Source: Myxococcales bacterium
Lineage (GTDB): Bacteria > Myxococcota_A > Polyangia > Palsa-1104 > SHYY01
Length of the DNA: 41,861 nt
NCBI GenBank assembly: GCA_009692555.1
Contig: SHYY01000027.1
Location: 1 to 41,861 of the forward strand
Reading direction: 5' to 3'
Below, one piece after another: positions 4,302-28,692 of the stretch. The notes beneath the pieces were generated by a model, which saw only the letters and a program-made list of their open reading frames with translations, searched no databases and was not told where the DNA came from. Position numbers and translations under genes: made by a program. Numbering within the stretch: the first letter of the stretch is position 1; each line of letters opens with the position of its first letter.

Positions 4302-5690
4302 CTAGACGAGGCGGGTGCTCGAGCCGCCCTGCCAGCGACAGAGCTCGGCGCGCGGCTCGTCCTCGCCGGAGATGATGAGGTGGGTGAATGCCTGCTCCGG
4401 GCCGCCGTCCCCCTCGGAGGACAGCCAGGTGCCGGTGTTGAAGTAGACGCCCCCGTCGGCCAGCTTGATCTCCTCCGGGTGATGCGAGTGGCCAAACACG
4501 ATGAACCGCGTGCGCACGATCCGGAGGATCGCCTCGGGCACCCGTCGCAGGAGCGCCGCCGAGTCAAGCAGCCGCAGCCGCGCCAGGAGCTGGTTCGCCG
4601 CCGCCGCCGCCGCCACGATCCCCGCTGCCGCCCCGATGCGCGGCCACCCTCGCATCGTCGCCACCACCACCGCCAGCATCATCACCGTCGCGATCCCGAG
4701 GAGGAACCGGTCGAGGAACAGCGCCACCAGCAGCTTGTGAAAGCTCTTCAGCACCGGCAGCCGCCGCAGCCCATCGAGCGCCACCACCTTGTCCACTGCC
4801 ATCCGGTAGGAGTCCGCCAGCGTGTGCAGCCGCGCCCGGTGCAGCTCGGCGCGCAGCGCATCCGATTGCCGGTCGGTGAGCTGCGCCCAGATCTCGATCA
4901 GCTTGCGGATCATCCCGGCGTAGAACAGCAGCAGCCGGGCCGCGCCGCGCGCTCCCTGGGCCGCCGCCCAGCGCGCGTAGTCGATGAAATTCCACGCCTC
5001 GGCGCAGTGCGGATCCATCTGCGGCACGAGGTTGGCGAAGTAGCGCACCCCGGCATGGGCCAGCGAGAGCGCCACCCCGCCCGTCGAGGCCACCGGGTGA
5101 AGCTGGTAGTCGAACGAGCAGTGCTCGTCGTACTGATGCCCGTGCTCGACGTAGACCAGGTTCTCCTCGTAGTAGAACCACGGGCAGAACCGGATGCTCT
5201 CGGCCGGCGCGCCGTGCCCCTCGAGCACCTCGACCAATCGCCGTTGCACCGCCTGGTAATGGAACTCGACGTCGTGGTTCCCCATCACCACCACCAGCTC
5301 GTTCCCCGCCGCGACGAACCGCCCGAGCTGCCGGAACACCTCCTGATGCCGCTCCACCACCCGATCGAGCTTGTGCCGCGACTGCGGCTCGCCGTGGCCG
5401 AGGCCGAACCGCTGCTCGTCGTCGTCACTGGGCGCGGCCGCGAGGTTGCCCTGCCCGGGCGCCGGCAGGATGTGCACCGACATGAAATCGACCATGTCGC
5501 CGTTGATCACCAGCCGCCATGCCCGCCCGCCGATCCGGTGCTCGGTGTAGTGCGTGAGGAACGCGATCAGCTCCCGCTCCAGCGCGACCAACCGTCTCAG
5601 GTATGACACGGTCGCCGTGGTCGGCCGCAGATCCTCACCCAGATGCAGATCCGAGATGACCAGGATGTTCTTGTCGAGACGGCCAATCAT
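4302..5690 (-). CDS. Membrane-tethered metallophosphoesterase
   Basis: 462 residues from ATG 5690. The calcineurin-like metal-binding motifs appear in order: ISDLHLGE near the N terminus, INGDMVDF, MGNHDVEF, EHGHQYDE and, near the C terminus, FGHSHHPEE followed by YFNTGTWL. The phosphoesterase fold is interrupted before the GHSHH motif by about 200 residues, which include a hydrophobic pair (LLGIATVMMLAVVVATM and IGAAAGIVAAAAAA) likely to form a membrane hairpin. It resembles large UDP-2,3-diacylglucosamine hydrolase/Ser-Thr phosphatase-like proteins, but the substrate is unknown. It is transcribed divergently from the Fe-S oxidoreductase at 5920. Confidence 0.85.
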   Translation of the reverse strand: MIGRLDKNILVISDLHLGEDLRPTTATVSYLRRLVALERELIAFLTHYTEHRIGGRAWRLVINGDMVDFMSVHILPAPGQGNLAAAPSDDDEQRFGLGHGEPQSRHKLDRVVERHQEVFRQLGRFVAAGNELVVVMGNHDVEFHYQAVQRRLVEVLEGHGAPAESIRFCPWFYYEENLVYVEHGHQYDEHCSFDYQLHPVASTGGVALSLAHAGVRYFANLVPQMDPHCAEAWNFIDYARWAAAQGARGAARLLLFYAGMIRKLIEIWAQLTDRQSDALRAELHRARLHTLADSYRMAVDKVVALDGLRRLPVLKSFHKLLVALFLDRFLLGIATVMMLAVVVATMRGWPRIGAAAGIVAAAAAANQLLARLRLLDSAALLRRVPEAILRIVRTRFIVFGHSHHPEEIKLADGGVYFNTGTWLSSEGDGGPEQAFTHLIISGEDEPRAELCRWQGGSSTRLV

Positions 5691-5841
5691 GTGAAAACGC
5701 TGCCTTCCTCTGCTGAAACCTTGATCCGGCCCAGGCGCCGGAGCAACCCTGTTTCCTCTCGGTTGCAAGCACGAGGCCGTTCATTCGCGATTCTGTTGCC
5801 GATTCGGCCGACCGGCGCCCCGGACCAGCCCGCGGCCGCGG

Positions 5842-5869
5842 TTGGCGACGCGAAGGCGCTGTGTTATAG
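5842..5869 (+). promoter_or_regulatory. Promoter candidate for the Fe-S oxidoreductase
   Basis: TTGGCG (5842-5847), a 16-base spacer and TTATAG (5864-5869) lie in the 229-base divergent gap between 5690 and 5920. The same TTATAG hexamer occurs before the gene at 13418. Confidence 0.4.
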
Positions 5870-5919
5870 GCGAAGCAGCCCATGACGCACGGCTCCGCCA
5901 CCGCATCCCCGGGGACTTC

Positions 5920-8028
<2,109 letters not shown>

Positions 8029-23176: not shown

Positions 23177-23195
23177 CTTCCATTGAGGTGTACCC

Positions 23196-25883
23196 ATGAG
23201 CAGCGACCATCCCGAAAGCAGTAGCAGCAGCGGCCCGAAGGGCATGTCCACCGGCGGAGCGATCATCGGCATGTTGATCGCCGCCATCCTCGGCTTCCTC
23301 CTCCGCGGCGCGATCGACGGCCGTGGCGGCGGGAGCACGGGCGGCGGCGGGGGCGCGGATGTCGACATCGCCGTCGTCCCCCCGGGAGCCGTCGACCCCT
23401 CGATCGATCGCTTCAAGATGACCCTCGGCAGCGCGCCGGTGAGGGGGAGCGCGACCGCCAAGGTGACGATCGTCGAGGTCTCCGACTTCCAGTGACCCTT
23501 CTGTTCGAGGGTCGGTCCGACCCTCAAGCAGATCGAGCAGAAGTACGGCAAGGACGTCCGCTTCGCCTTCAAGAACAACCCGCTCCCGTTCCACCCGAAC
23601 GCGATGCCCGCCGCCGAGGCTGCCCTCGCCGCGCACGAGCAGGGGAAGTTCTGGGAGATGCACGACAAGATCTTTGCCAACCAGCGTGAGCTCTCCGCCG
23701 AGGCGTACGAGAAGTACGCCAAGGAGCTCGGGCTCAACCTGGAGAAGTTCAAGGCGGCGATCTCGACCGGCAAGTTCAAGGCGCAGATCCAGGCGGAGCA
23801 GGCCGAGGCGGCGCGCTTCGGCGCACGCGGCACGCCGGCCTTCTTCATCAACGGGCGCTACCTCTCGGGGGCGCAGCCGTTCGACTCGTTCAAGGCGATC
23901 GTCGATCAGGAGATCGCCGCCGCCAACCAGGCGATCAAGGCGGGGGTGGCGCCGAATCAGGTCTACGCCGCGCTGATGAAGAGCGCCAAGACCGGCGAGC
24001 CGCAGGTGGCCCTCCCCGCCCAGGCGGCGGCCGCCCAGCCAGAGCGCAAGGCGCCGCCGCCGGAGACCACCGTGTACAAGGTCCCGGTCGGTGGCTCGCC
24101 GCAGAAGGGCCCGTCGACCGCGCTGGTGACGATCATCGAGTTCTCCGACTTCCAGTGCCCGTTCTGCTCGCGCGTAGGCGGGACGATCGATCAGGTCGAG
24201 AAGGAGTACGGCGCGAAGGTGCGGATCGTCTGGAAGAACAACCCCCTCCCCTTCCACGACAACGCGACGCCGGCGGCCGAGGCGTCGCTGGCAGCGCACG
24301 AGCAGCAGAAGTTCTGGCCGATGCACGACCTCCTGTTCAAGAACCAGCAGGCGCTCGACCGCCCGTCGCTGGAGAAGTACGCCGCAGAGCTCGGCCTGAA
24401 CGCCGGCAAGTTCAAGGCGGCGCTCGATTCGCACAAATTCAAGGCGTCGATCGAGGCGGACATGGCGCTGGCGGCCCAGGTGGGCGCGCGCGGCACGCCG
24501 TCGTTCATGATCAACGGCAAGCCGCTCCGCGGGGCGCAGCCGTTCCCGGCCTTCAAGGCAGCGATCGATGCGGCGCTGGTCGATGCCGAGGCGGCGCTCA
24601 AGCGCGGCGTGAAGCCGGCCGACCTCTACAACGAGCTGACCAAGGGCGGCCTCGAGAAGGCGGCGGCCCCCGCGGCGCCGCCCGGCCAGCCGTCGGACGC
24701 GGTGGTCTACAAGGCGCTGGTCGGCGACGCGCCGGTGAAAGGCGCGAAAAACGCGAAAGTCACGATTGTGGAGTTTTCGGACTTTCAGTGCCCGTTCTGC
24801 TCGCGCGTCGAGCTGACCGTCGACCAGGTGGTGAAGGCCTTCCCGAACGACGTGCGGGTGGCCTTCAAGCAGCTCCCGCTGCCGTTCCACGACAAGGCAC
24901 AGCTGGCGGCCGAGGCCACGCTGGCGGCCAAGGAGCAGGGCAAGTTCTGGGAAATGCACGCCACGCTGTTCAAGAACCAGCAGGCGCTCGACCGGCCGTC
25001 GCTCGACAAGTACGCGGCGGAGCTCGGGTTGAACATGGCGAAGTTCAAGGCGGCGCTCGACGGCGGGAAGTTCACCCAGAAGGTCAAGGACGAGATGGCC
25101 GAGGGCAACAAGATCGGCGCGCGCGGCACGCCCTCGTTCTTCATCAACGGGAAGAGCTTCGTCGGGGCGCAGCCGTTCGAGAGCTTCAAGGCGAAGATCG
25201 AGGAGGAGATCAAGAACGCCGACAATCTCACGGCGGCGAAGCACGTCACCGGGACGAAGATCTACGACGAGCTGATGAAGGACGCCAAGGACACCGTGGC
25301 GGCGGCTCCCGCGGCGGCGCCCGCCCCCGGAGGCGATGACGTCAAGGCGGCCGAGGTGATCAAGGTGGATCCGGGCAATGGCCCGTCGAAGGGGCCGAAG
25401 AATGCGCCGGTGGTGATCGTGGCGCTCTCCGACTTCCAGTGACCGTTCTGTTCGAGGGTCGGTCCGACCCTCAAGCAGATCGAGGAGAAGTACGCCGGCA
25501 AGGTCCGCATCGTGTGGCGCAACTACCCGCTGCCGTTCCACGCCAACGCGATGCCGGCCGCCGAGGCGGCGATGGCGGCGCATGAGCAGGGGAAGTTCTG
25601 GGAGATGCACGACAAGATCTTCGCCAACCAGGGCTTCCTCGACCGGCCGACGTTCGAGAAGCACGCGCAGGAGATCGGCTTGAACATGGCGAAGTTCAAG
25701 AGCGCGCTCGACTCGGGGCGCAACAAGGCCGGAATCCAGGCGGACGTGGCCTACATCAACACGCTGCCCGGCGGCGGCGTCGGCACGCCCACCTTCTTCA
25801 TCAACGGGCACAAGCTGGCGGGCGCCTATCCGTTCGACGAGTTCGCGAAGATCATCGACGCGGAGCTGAAGAAGAAGGGCTAG
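23196..25883 (+). CDS. Predicted double-selenocysteine protein with four DsbA-like domains
   Basis: 895 residues with Sec predicted at 100 and 749; ATG 23196 follows GAGGTG by five bases. TGA at 23493-23495 and 25440-25442 are in frame with one continuous gene ending at TAG 25881-25883. A membrane anchor (residues about 20-40) places the rest in the periplasm. Four DsbA/DSBA-like thioredoxin domains follow; active sites are UPFC (100-103), CPFC (321-324), CPFC (532-535) and UPFC (749-752), spaced 211-221 residues. Each site follows SDFQ, and each domain has a cis-proline loop (GTPAFFING, GTPSFMING, GTPSFFING, GTPTFFING). Homologues with Cys would make or shuffle disulfides. Sec should raise reactivity. 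Calling TGA as stop splits it into three false genes (23196-23495, 23604-25442, 25512-25883). Confidence 0.9.
23493..23531 (+). promoter_or_regulatory. Sec codon and predicted bacterial SECIS 1
   Basis: UGA 23493-23495 is followed by a hairpin at 23501-23531. The upper stem GAGGGTCG (23507-23514) pairs with CGACCCTC (23518-23525), and a lower stem CTGTT/AGCAG is separated by one C/A mismatch. The apical sequence GGTCC recalls the GGUCU loop of E. coli fdhF. The loop is about 18 bases after the UGA, within the usual range for SelB recognition. Confidence 0.8.
25440..25478 (+). promoter_or_regulatory. Sec codon and predicted bacterial SECIS 2
   Basis: UGA 25440-25442 followed by a hairpin at 25448-25478 identical to the first one. 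Between UGA and the end of the hairpin the two sites differ at one base only (CCC against CCG for Pro). The Cys-type domains 2 and 3 do not have this sequence. Confidence 0.8.
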
Positions 25884-25904
25884 AAATCACCGGATGAACG
25901 TCGA

Positions 25905-25940
25905 GGAGCCGGGGAGGCGATCTCCCCGGCTCCTTTTTTT
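25905..25940 (+). terminator. Rho-independent terminator of the selenoprotein gene
   Basis: GGAGCCGGGGA (25905-25915) pairs with TCCCCGGCTCC (25923-25933) over a seven-base loop, followed by seven T. It sits 21 bases after the TAG stop. Confidence 0.93.
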
Positions 25941-27847: not shown

Positions 27848-28093
27848 GTGCGCGTGGAGATTTTCTCGCGGCGGGAGTGCCACCTCTGCGACGAGGCGAA
27901 GGCGGTCGTCTTGCGGGTGCGTGCGGACACGCCCTTCGAGCTGGCGGTGATCGACGTGGACGAGGATCCCGCGCTCGCGGAGCGACACGGTCTCGAGGTG
28001 CCTGTGGTGGTGGTCGACGGGCGGAAGCACGCCAAGTACCGGGTCGATGAGCAGGCCTTTCGGCGGCGCCTGGCCGGGCAAGCCGACGCATGA
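27848..28093 (+). CDS. Glutaredoxin-like small redox protein
   Basis: 81 residues from GTG 27848. CHLC (residues 11-14 region, [12 protein letters not shown]) is the active site and [11 protein letters not shown] supplies the cis-Pro strand. It belongs to the short 'glutaredoxin family protein' group. It lies one base after aroF, and its TGA overlaps the ATG of the TlpA-like gene (ATGA, 28090-28093). Likely cytoplasmic; the partner is unknown. Confidence 0.85.
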
Positions 28094-28692
28094 AGCCACT
28101 GGTGTGGATCGTCGTCACCGCGGTGTGCGGGCTCCTCGCCGCGGCGTTCCTGCGCGCACTCCCGGGGGCGGTGGAGAGGCAGCGCACGGGGCGCGAGGCC
28201 GCGCTGAAGGCGGTGTGCGAGCCAGCGCTTCGGCCCGAGGCGCACAGCGCCGCGCTCGGGCAGATTGGCCCCGAGGGCGCCGCCGCGCCCGAGTTCACGC
28301 TCAAGGACTGGGCCGGGCGCAAGGTGGCGCTCTCGTCGCTGCGGGGCCGGGTGGTGCTGGTGAACTTCTGGGCGACCTGGTGCGACACCTGCGTGGTGGA
28401 GATGCCTGGGCTCGATCAGCTCGCGGCGGCGGAGAAGAACCGGCCCTTCAGTCTGCTGGCAATCTCTGTCGACGAGAACTGGGACGTGGTGCGGCAGTTC
28501 TTCGCCCAGGGGACGGCGCTGACGGTGCTGCTCGACAAGGAGAAGAGCGTGCCGCCGCGCTACGGCACCGAGAAGTTCCCCGAGTCGTTCCTGATCGATC
28601 GCGACGGCAAGGTCCGCTACTTCGTGGTCTCCGACCGGAACTGGGCCTCCCCCGATATTCGCGCCTGCATCGACCAGCTGATTGATGGCTGA
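28090..28692 (+). CDS. TlpA/ResA-like membrane-anchored thioredoxin
   Basis: 200 residues. An N-terminal hydrophobic helix ([21 protein letters not shown]) anchors it with the domain outside the cytoplasm. [17 protein letters not shown] is the active site (WCDTC), and [16 protein letters not shown] contains the cis-Pro loop. TlpA/ResA proteins reduce disulfides for cytochrome c maturation or copper insertion. Its TGA stop is half of a palindrome shared with the convergent gene at 28693. Confidence 0.92.

Follow-up and report, generated by a model that had tools for sequence, protein, structure and literature searches.

Do two TGA codons that interrupt a single long reading frame in a Myxococcales bacterium act as stops, or do they encode selenocysteine (Sec, U)? 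The question is raised by a locus on contig SHYY01000027.1 (assembly GCA_009692555.1; contig C162 of genome G000 in the comparisons below), of which positions 1 to 41,861 were analysed; this whole stretch of 41,861 nucleotides (nt) is referred to hereafter as the window. The assembly is a metagenome-assembled genome (MAG) of 6.1 Mb that is 80% complete. From the ATG at 23196 to the TAG at 25881-25883 there is one frame of 895 residues with two in-frame TGAs, and our analysis of the sequence indicates that this is very probably one gene for a four-domain chain in which UGA 100 and UGA 749 would be decoded as Sec by way of the hairpins that follow them. The gene and the two codons are as follows.

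23196..25883, + strand: predicted four-domain DsbA/DsbG-like selenoprotein gene, 895 codons plus TAG (from sequence, domain searches and orthologue comparison)
23493..23495, + strand: TGA, predicted Sec codon, residue 100 (from sequence and a covariance model)
25440..25442, + strand: TGA, predicted Sec codon, residue 749 (from sequence and a covariance model)

An initial annotation of the sequence had read the frame as open across TGA 23493 and TGA 25440 to TAG 25881, with each TGA replacing the first cysteine (Cys) of CPFC after SDFQ. Re-reading of the sequence and its translation agreed with this on each point: CPFC or UPFC motifs lie at residues 100, 321, 532 and 749, the TGAs occupy the place of the first Cys in domains 1 and 4, and SDFQ directly precedes both. 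General recoding of TGA, which the annotation had excluded since TGA ends many other genes here, is ruled out because TGA terminates 9 of the 16 Pfam-supported window open reading frames (ORFs) checked.

If both TGAs were true stops, the locus would be a broken gene or three short genes of 99, 612 and 123 codons. Standard ORF finding gives that three-way split (23196-23495, 23604-25442 and 25512-25883), and the 612-residue middle piece is stored in the database as a protein (P0010). Against this, protein constraint runs on after both TGAs. The DNA was compared with that of five all-Cys orthologues in three parts (codons 1-99, 101-748 and 750-895), and the proportion of nonsynonymous differences was below that of synonymous differences in 15 of 15 orthologue-by-part comparisons, with synonymous divergence (dS) near or above 1 in some of them and only 424 of 648 codons available for the middle part of one orthologue (G003). 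Amino-acid identity to the five was 47-53% before, 61-67% between and 63-70% after the TGAs, and G+C content at third codon positions was 0.92, 0.95 and 0.97 in the same order. These comparisons indicate that protein-level selection continues beyond both TGAs and that the three parts form one gene. Both TGAs also sit on a catalytic Cys and are followed by hairpins absent from nearly all Cys sites, and the Sec machinery is encoded in the same genome (both described below); we regard true stops as very improbable.

The hairpins following the TGAs are listed here.

23507..23525, + strand: predicted bacterial Sec insertion sequence (bSECIS) hairpin after the first TGA, GAGGGUCG-GUC-CGACCCUC (from core count, folding, covariation and model)
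25454..25472, + strand: predicted bSECIS hairpin after the second TGA, its 19 nt identical to the first (from core count, folding and model)

For a bSECIS, the legend to Fig. 2 of PMC13188914 gives a loop of 3-9 nt with a G in the first two loop positions, a stem of 4-16 base pairs, 16-37 nt from UGA to loop and a minimum free energy (MFE) of -7.5 or lower. Both hairpins have a loop of 3 (GUC, or G-GUC-C counting the closing pair), a stem of 8 and a UGA-to-loop distance of 19 nt (18 if the closing pair is assigned to the loop), with MFEs of -22.7 and -24.3. All four published limits, on loop, stem, spacing and energy, thus enclose both hairpins. Relative to shuffled sequences, the TGA sites folded with z scores of -3.95 and -3.68, while those of the Cys sites in the same gene were -0.82 and 0.13.

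The hairpin sequence is nearly restricted to Sec sites. In a first set of loci, all 21 distinct Sec sites had the core GTCGGTCCGAC, compared with 2 of 362 Cys sites, and an 8-pair helix was possible at 18 of 21 and 16 of 362, respectively; the core count took only sites with [SATGIMV][DE][FY][QE] before the codon, by which two loci (L159 and L173) were dropped. Where Sec and Cys sites encode the same peptide, xPxCx[RK]VGPTL, the Arg/Lys codon was AGR/AAR at all 21 Sec sites and CGN at all 11 Cys sites. Both hairpins of this gene contain the Arg codon AGG, which the 11 same-peptide Cys sites never use. A wider set, drawn from the class and phylum scans described below, had the exact core at 39 of 48 domain-bearing Sec sites.

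These differences bear directly on the possibility that a sequencing or assembly error changed TGC to TGA twice. Close four-domain relatives carry Cys at both places, as an error would predict, but the Sec sites differ from Cys sites over the next 30 nt, including the AGG codon, and encode RVGPTLK in place of the RVEPT or RVVPT found in most relatives, a change that a base error cannot yield. Among the 112 listed proteins with four CP[FY]C sites, [RK]VGPTL was found 0, 1, 0 and 1 times in domains 1 to 4 (0/112 for domain 1 and 1/112 for domain 4), whereas both Sec domains of this gene have RVGPTL. The RNA element appears to have set this peptide. A misread TGC is implausible because each TGA sits on a hairpin with an AGG that is unused at the 11 same-peptide Cys sites, and we consider such an error extremely improbable.

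Covariation was examined over the 39 exact-core sites, the other 9 of the 48 being excluded. Of the cells in this alignment, 97.4% were paired and 14 were altered on both sides, and the percentage paired, the number of changed cells and the covariation score were each matched by 0 of 500 shuffles; these statistics ignore kinship among the sequences. Double-sided changes were confined to the three outer pairs, and five pairs were invariant and hence uninformative. A covariance model trained on 35 sites from other genomes, with coding flanks included, scored 70.7 and 69.5 bits at the two TGAs versus 13.3 and 11.5 bits at the Cys sites of the gene; the opposite strand of the same palindromes scored 26.4 and 25.5 bits. 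Part of each score reflects protein conservation because the model spans the coding flanks. A genome-wide first look yielded 4103 candidates, of which 150 were scored; values above 27 bits were obtained only at four Sec sites, those of C162 and of a second contig, C235. A search of Rfam returned three matches, none to a SECIS family and each scoring far under its gathering threshold; they were disregarded.

Several observations count against the bSECIS reading. Nine of the 48 Sec sites had other hairpins, with predicted energies of -8.0 to -18.7 kcal/mol; these were counted by presence and predicted energy, not one by one against the bSECIS criteria. The number of pairs changed on both sides was as high in 83 of 500 shuffles, and that of further pair types in 380 of 500. 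With the first 21 sites, in which only one pair was altered on both sides, the same two count measures stood at 316 of 500 shuffles. The best Cys site among 34 loci lacking Sec sites reached 42.5 bits, a high score because the model includes the coding flanks. Taken with these points, the near-restriction to Sec sites and the covariation mark the hairpin-forming sequence as a predicted bSECIS.

The initial annotation had proposed a search of the genome for the sel genes, and all of those looked for were found: SelA (560.9 bits, cut-off 267.9), SelB (329.6 bits, cut-off 242.25), SelD on contig C31 (353.6 bits, cut-off 125) and one tRNA-Sec over the cut-off (71.9 bits, cut-off 47) with the anticodon TCA. 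The selD gene has an in-frame TGA in GGUAAK, and the published selenoprotein table gives UxxK as the Sec motif of SelD (PMC13188914). This codon is a sign, independent of the gene in the window, that the genome decodes Sec, as judged from its sequence. SelA was matched in 28 of the 29 genomes whose Sec site of the scanned pattern passed the domain check, compared to a background of 135 of 317 in the class; the sole exception, G123, is 71% complete. Another Sec gene of the assembly lies on contig C263 just after mnmA and encodes a UXX-star family 1 glutaredoxin-like selenoprotein (NF041114, 110.9 bits, cut-off 72) with one TGA at the active site and one at the third codon from the end. The frame in the window is, on this evidence, a real selenoprotein gene by prediction, and the SelA, SelB, SelD and tRNA-Sec of the genome would decode UGA 100 and UGA 749 through the hairpin directly after each.

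The encoded chain has four domains and a putative membrane helix.

23256..23315, + strand: predicted single N-terminal membrane helix, residues 21-40 (low-confidence AlphaFold2 helix and hydrophobic sequence)
23427..23924, + strand: Thioredoxin_4 domain 1, residues about 78-243, motif UPFC (Pfam, alignment, AlphaFold2)
24087..24581, + strand: Thioredoxin_4 domain 2, residues about 298-462, motif CPFC, Cys codon TGC at 24156 (motif search, alignment)
24720..25220, + strand: Thioredoxin_4 domain 3, residues about 509-675, motif CPFC, Cys codon TGC at 24789 (motif search, alignment)
25374..25874, + strand: Thioredoxin_4 domain 4, residues about 727-893, motif UPFC (Pfam, alignment, AlphaFold2)

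The proposal of a four-domain DsbA-like chain was upheld by Pfam, which placed four Thioredoxin_4 and four DSBA stretches along the chain above the curated cut-off, and by AlphaFold2 (alignment of 70 sequences), which predicted four confident domains (mean predicted local distance difference test score 88.2). Each domain has a C/UxxC motif and a cis-Pro TP motif; T213-P214, T434-P435 and T645-P646 are invariant and T864-P865 is at least 90% conserved. The best PDB matches by sequence and fold were DsbA and TsdA of Corynebacterium diphtheriae, with further fold matches to the UGGT thioredoxin-like tandem, ScsC, alpha-DsbA and BdbD. The chain is predicted to be anchored in the membrane by helix 21-40 and presumably lies outside the inner membrane. 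Weighing against a firm view of this arrangement, the predicted template modelling score was 0.48, so that the mutual arrangement of the domains is without prediction, and the charges flanking the helix favour neither orientation clearly, leaving the topology uncertain. A lipobox Cys was not found; residues 1-99 are without any Cys.

How rare is the Sec form of this chain? A match was found in 57 of 58 genomes, and the seven relatives within the order whose alignments cover nearly the whole chain have no internal stop; homologues, rather than being truncated at the TGA sites, read through with Cys. When four-site ORFs were fetched as DNA with TGA kept open (n=37, including genomes fetched twice), they comprised this gene, with the order U-C-C-U (UCCU), and 36 all-Cys ORFs, so that every other four-domain ORF compared has Cys at both sites; a CCU row is a part view of this gene and was not counted. 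Among the best 120 of 7361 database hits, 113 proteins had four sites, all Cys, and the closest full-length relatives were 71-74% identical over the whole chain. Database gene calls would cut Sec forms at TGA and are biased towards Sec rarity, which makes the DNA count the fairer one. Telling against the Sec form as an established variant, it was seen in this one MAG (80% complete) only, no four-domain copy was found in the same-genus genome G001, and in the same-family genome G002 the three domains that could be located carry Cys. In the G002 relative (contig C281, L033/L143) the fourth domain was not found, and the frame shows a TAG and an apparent break in domain 1, possibly assembly damage.

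In a tree of single domains, window domain 4 groups with Cys domains 4 (99/93) and window domain 1 with Cys domains 1 (91/71 for the nearest, 96/89 for the wider group). Four label changes are needed for Sec, with window domains 1 and 4 within Cys clades. The placement in the tree suggests, most simply, that Sec arose twice within an all-Cys four-domain gene; alternatively, an ancient Sec state may have been followed by many losses.

A tentative extension, which we think possible but doubtful, is that the TGA and the 30-nt hairpin after it together act as a portable 'selenium cassette', copied between domains and between paralogues in Myxococcota. Such a cassette would overwrite the loop after CxxC with its encoded peptide [RK]VGPTL. 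Between domains 1 and 4, DNA identity is 94-100% over the TGA and hairpin and 86% just upstream; one stretch further downstream has 90%, and the other five have 57-76%. Protein similarity of the two domains outside the site is high at 0.72, a value reached by 9 of 109 all-Cys orthologues. Copying by gene conversion is unproven from these alignments because SelB constraint can also explain the identity of the TGA-hairpin block. If the cassette were real, tandem Dsb chains with variable Sec heads (UU, UUC, UUU, UCCU) would be expected, an RNA signal would dictate protein sequence, and selenium supply would set the number of heads per chain.

Related chains with several Sec residues do occur elsewhere in the phylum. 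An 18-base pattern encoding F-[Q/E]-U-P-[F/Y]-C was run against 317 genomes from the class and 377 from the phylum (590 different genomes). The class scan gave 23 matches in 16 of 317 genomes (reversed-pattern control, 3) and the phylum scan 41 matches in 25 of 377 (control, 4). Of 53 distinct pattern sites in the fetched loci, 48 had the domain and five (L159, L173, L182, L183 and L214) had neither domain nor hairpin core, three of these from genomes in which SelA was not matched and two from genomes in which it was; a pattern site in G369 was left out of the domain check. The distinct Sec Thioredoxin_4 proteins were one UCCU, two UUU, one UUC, seven UU, four UCC, two UC and 21 with a single U, the shorter patterns being minima, with some proteins at contig ends. 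Two or three predicted Sec residues were present in 11 proteins from 8 of the 590 genomes (G000, G006, G008, G011, G426, G449, G480 and G500).

One of these is a second double-Sec gene of the same genome, on C235 at about 4626-6220 on the minus strand (L055/P0124), with two Thioredoxin_4 domains, both UPFC. The N-terminal part of its product has a hydrophobic stretch followed by a Cys-rich segment, CDCGCPHG..CKKEDPGCPRAP, for which there was no Pfam match at 1e-5. The double Sec of this type is retained in G006, G008 and G011, and G002 has U then C. G480 encodes two three-domain proteins (L196 on C11 and L197 on C139; P0122 and P0123) with UPxC in all three domains; the hairpin at the third site of each is unlike the common core. 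The context EFAUPFC, in the single-domain relatives L153 (G053:C57) and L156 (G021:C206), falls outside the scanned pattern, and for this reason the census is a lower bound. The class of multi-Sec tandem Dsb chains is likely under-counted, since ORF finders split such proteins.

These relatives qualify the suggestion that a membrane-anchored four-domain chain with Sec in two domains is an undescribed architecture. It is absent from the largest published inventory consulted, Table 1 of PMC13188914, and to that extent the suggestion stands, but the gene is no isolated oddity, given the two- and three-domain multi-Sec relatives. In the literature searched, which left most subscription journals outside, no description of a tandem Dsb selenoprotein with several Sec residues was found; a term search within PMC12013277 gave no hit. 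The C235-type and G480 proteins resemble this gene as Thioredoxin_4 tandems with a hydrophobic N-terminus and with UPFC or UPYC and a hairpin-forming sequence after each TGA; they differ in their number of domains, two or three, each with Sec. The all-Cys four-domain proteins of Myxococcota, named 'protein-disulfide isomerase' or 'thioredoxin domain-containing protein' (most of P0003-P0121), share its architecture and length but have Cys in all four motifs.

Among described families, the inventory counts 119 families and subfamilies, the vast majority with one Sec and a small subset with two or three; its Table 1 lists DsbG-like NF041057 and DsbA-like form 1 (PF01323) with one Sec each (PMC13188914). 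The NF041057 model (Rcas_1661 family thioredoxin-like (seleno)lipoprotein; equivalog) scored 411.5 bits (cut-off 190) over four stretches of the chain, and in both the first Cys of the motif is replaced, giving UxxC. A member of that family is one 247-position model per protein, with one domain and one listed Sec, whereas this chain has four tandem stretches and two TGAs; despite the lipoprotein name it has a membrane helix and no lipobox Cys. Because of that missing Cys, we place the gene, by sequence, as a tandem relative of NF041057 outside strict membership. The DSBA family assignment and UxxC are shared with DsbA-like form 1, listed with one Sec as against two here (PMC13188914), and with the DsbA-like selenoprotein of Anaeromyxobacter dehalogenans (PMC1794560). 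Several Sec residues per chain are also found in UXX-star family 1, TsoB and the arsenite methyltransferase/AhpD selenoprotein, and no family with two or three Sec in Table 1 of PMC13188914 is named as a Dsb tandem with Sec in a repeated unit.

What might such a chain do? The most likely mechanism, to which we would give about an even chance, is that of a multi-head thiol-disulfide reductase/isomerase tethered in the cell envelope. Sec is a fast nucleophile of low pKa, and UPFC forms a selenylsulfide. The end domains would carry the Sec nucleophile and the two middle domains would work as ordinary CPFC heads. Several catalytic heads are also present in protein disulfide isomerase (PDI) and ScsC, and by analogy the heads on one chain may shuffle disulfides of envelope proteins. 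PDI, bacterial ScsC and the UGGT thioredoxin-like tandem are Cys proteins with several thioredoxin-fold heads per particle, a comparison of how they work and not of membership. PDI has the layout a-b-b'-a' with catalytic domains at both ends (PMC4030966), and the order U-C-C-U may likewise set Sec heads at both ends.

The same gene could instead encode a DsbA-like oxidase or a scaffold that reduces peroxides or electrophiles. The Pfam DSBA and Thioredoxin_4 matches and the PDB matches (DsbA and TsdA of C. diphtheriae foremost, with ScsC, alpha-DsbA and BdbD among others) speak for this. It is the less likely assignment, since the selenylsulfide of a UxxC motif has greater reducing power than the disulfide of CxxC, and isomerases typically carry several heads per particle. 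Against the reductase/isomerase, a Pfam scan of 28 window ORFs matched no family of the DsbB/DsbD type.

Decoding would limit how much full-length chain is made. UGA recoding efficiency in E. coli is given as 30-40% (PMC4513850), and independent recoding at that rate per UGA would leave about 10-16% of started chains full length; the E. coli figure may not hold in this organism, which weakens the estimate. Full-length output would in that case depend on selenium supply. An unlikely variant is that the second UGA serves chiefly as a selenium-dependent switch: the 748-residue three-domain form would be what is usually made, and the fourth head would be added only when selenium is plentiful. The same E. 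coli recoding figure and the completeness of the three-domain chain before domain 4 are compatible with a switch, but the segment beyond the second UGA is under constraint as strong as that on the middle one.

Two further features flank the gene.

23185..23188, + strand: GAGG, which we take to be Shine-Dalgarno-like, 7 nt upstream of the ATG (read in the sequence)
25903..25935, + strand: intrinsic-terminator-like site, 20 nt after the TAG, with a 15-pair stem and a T run (consensus scan)

The terminator scan found 4 sites versus 2.7 expected in shuffles, and the stem at 25903..25935 is by far the longest. No operon partner was convincing: the terminator-like site follows the gene, and the next Pfam-supported genes are Uma2 and DAHP synthase. 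At 27848-28692, 2 kb downstream, a small glutaredoxin-like ORF overlaps a TlpA/AhpC-TSA-like redoxin with an N-terminal hydrophobic stretch; neither has an in-frame TGA.

The predicted mixture of Sec and Cys in one chain of repeated domains, together with all-Cys orthologues of the same length, amounts to a natural experiment on what Sec contributes, allowing the four domains to be set side by side in chains with Sec and chains lacking it. Of greater interest than this single gene is the wider class of multi-Sec tandem Dsb chains. The 11 proteins with two or three predicted Sec were recovered from 590 genomes with a single narrow pattern of 18 bases, and such chains raise the question of how bacteria decode two or three UGAs per message.

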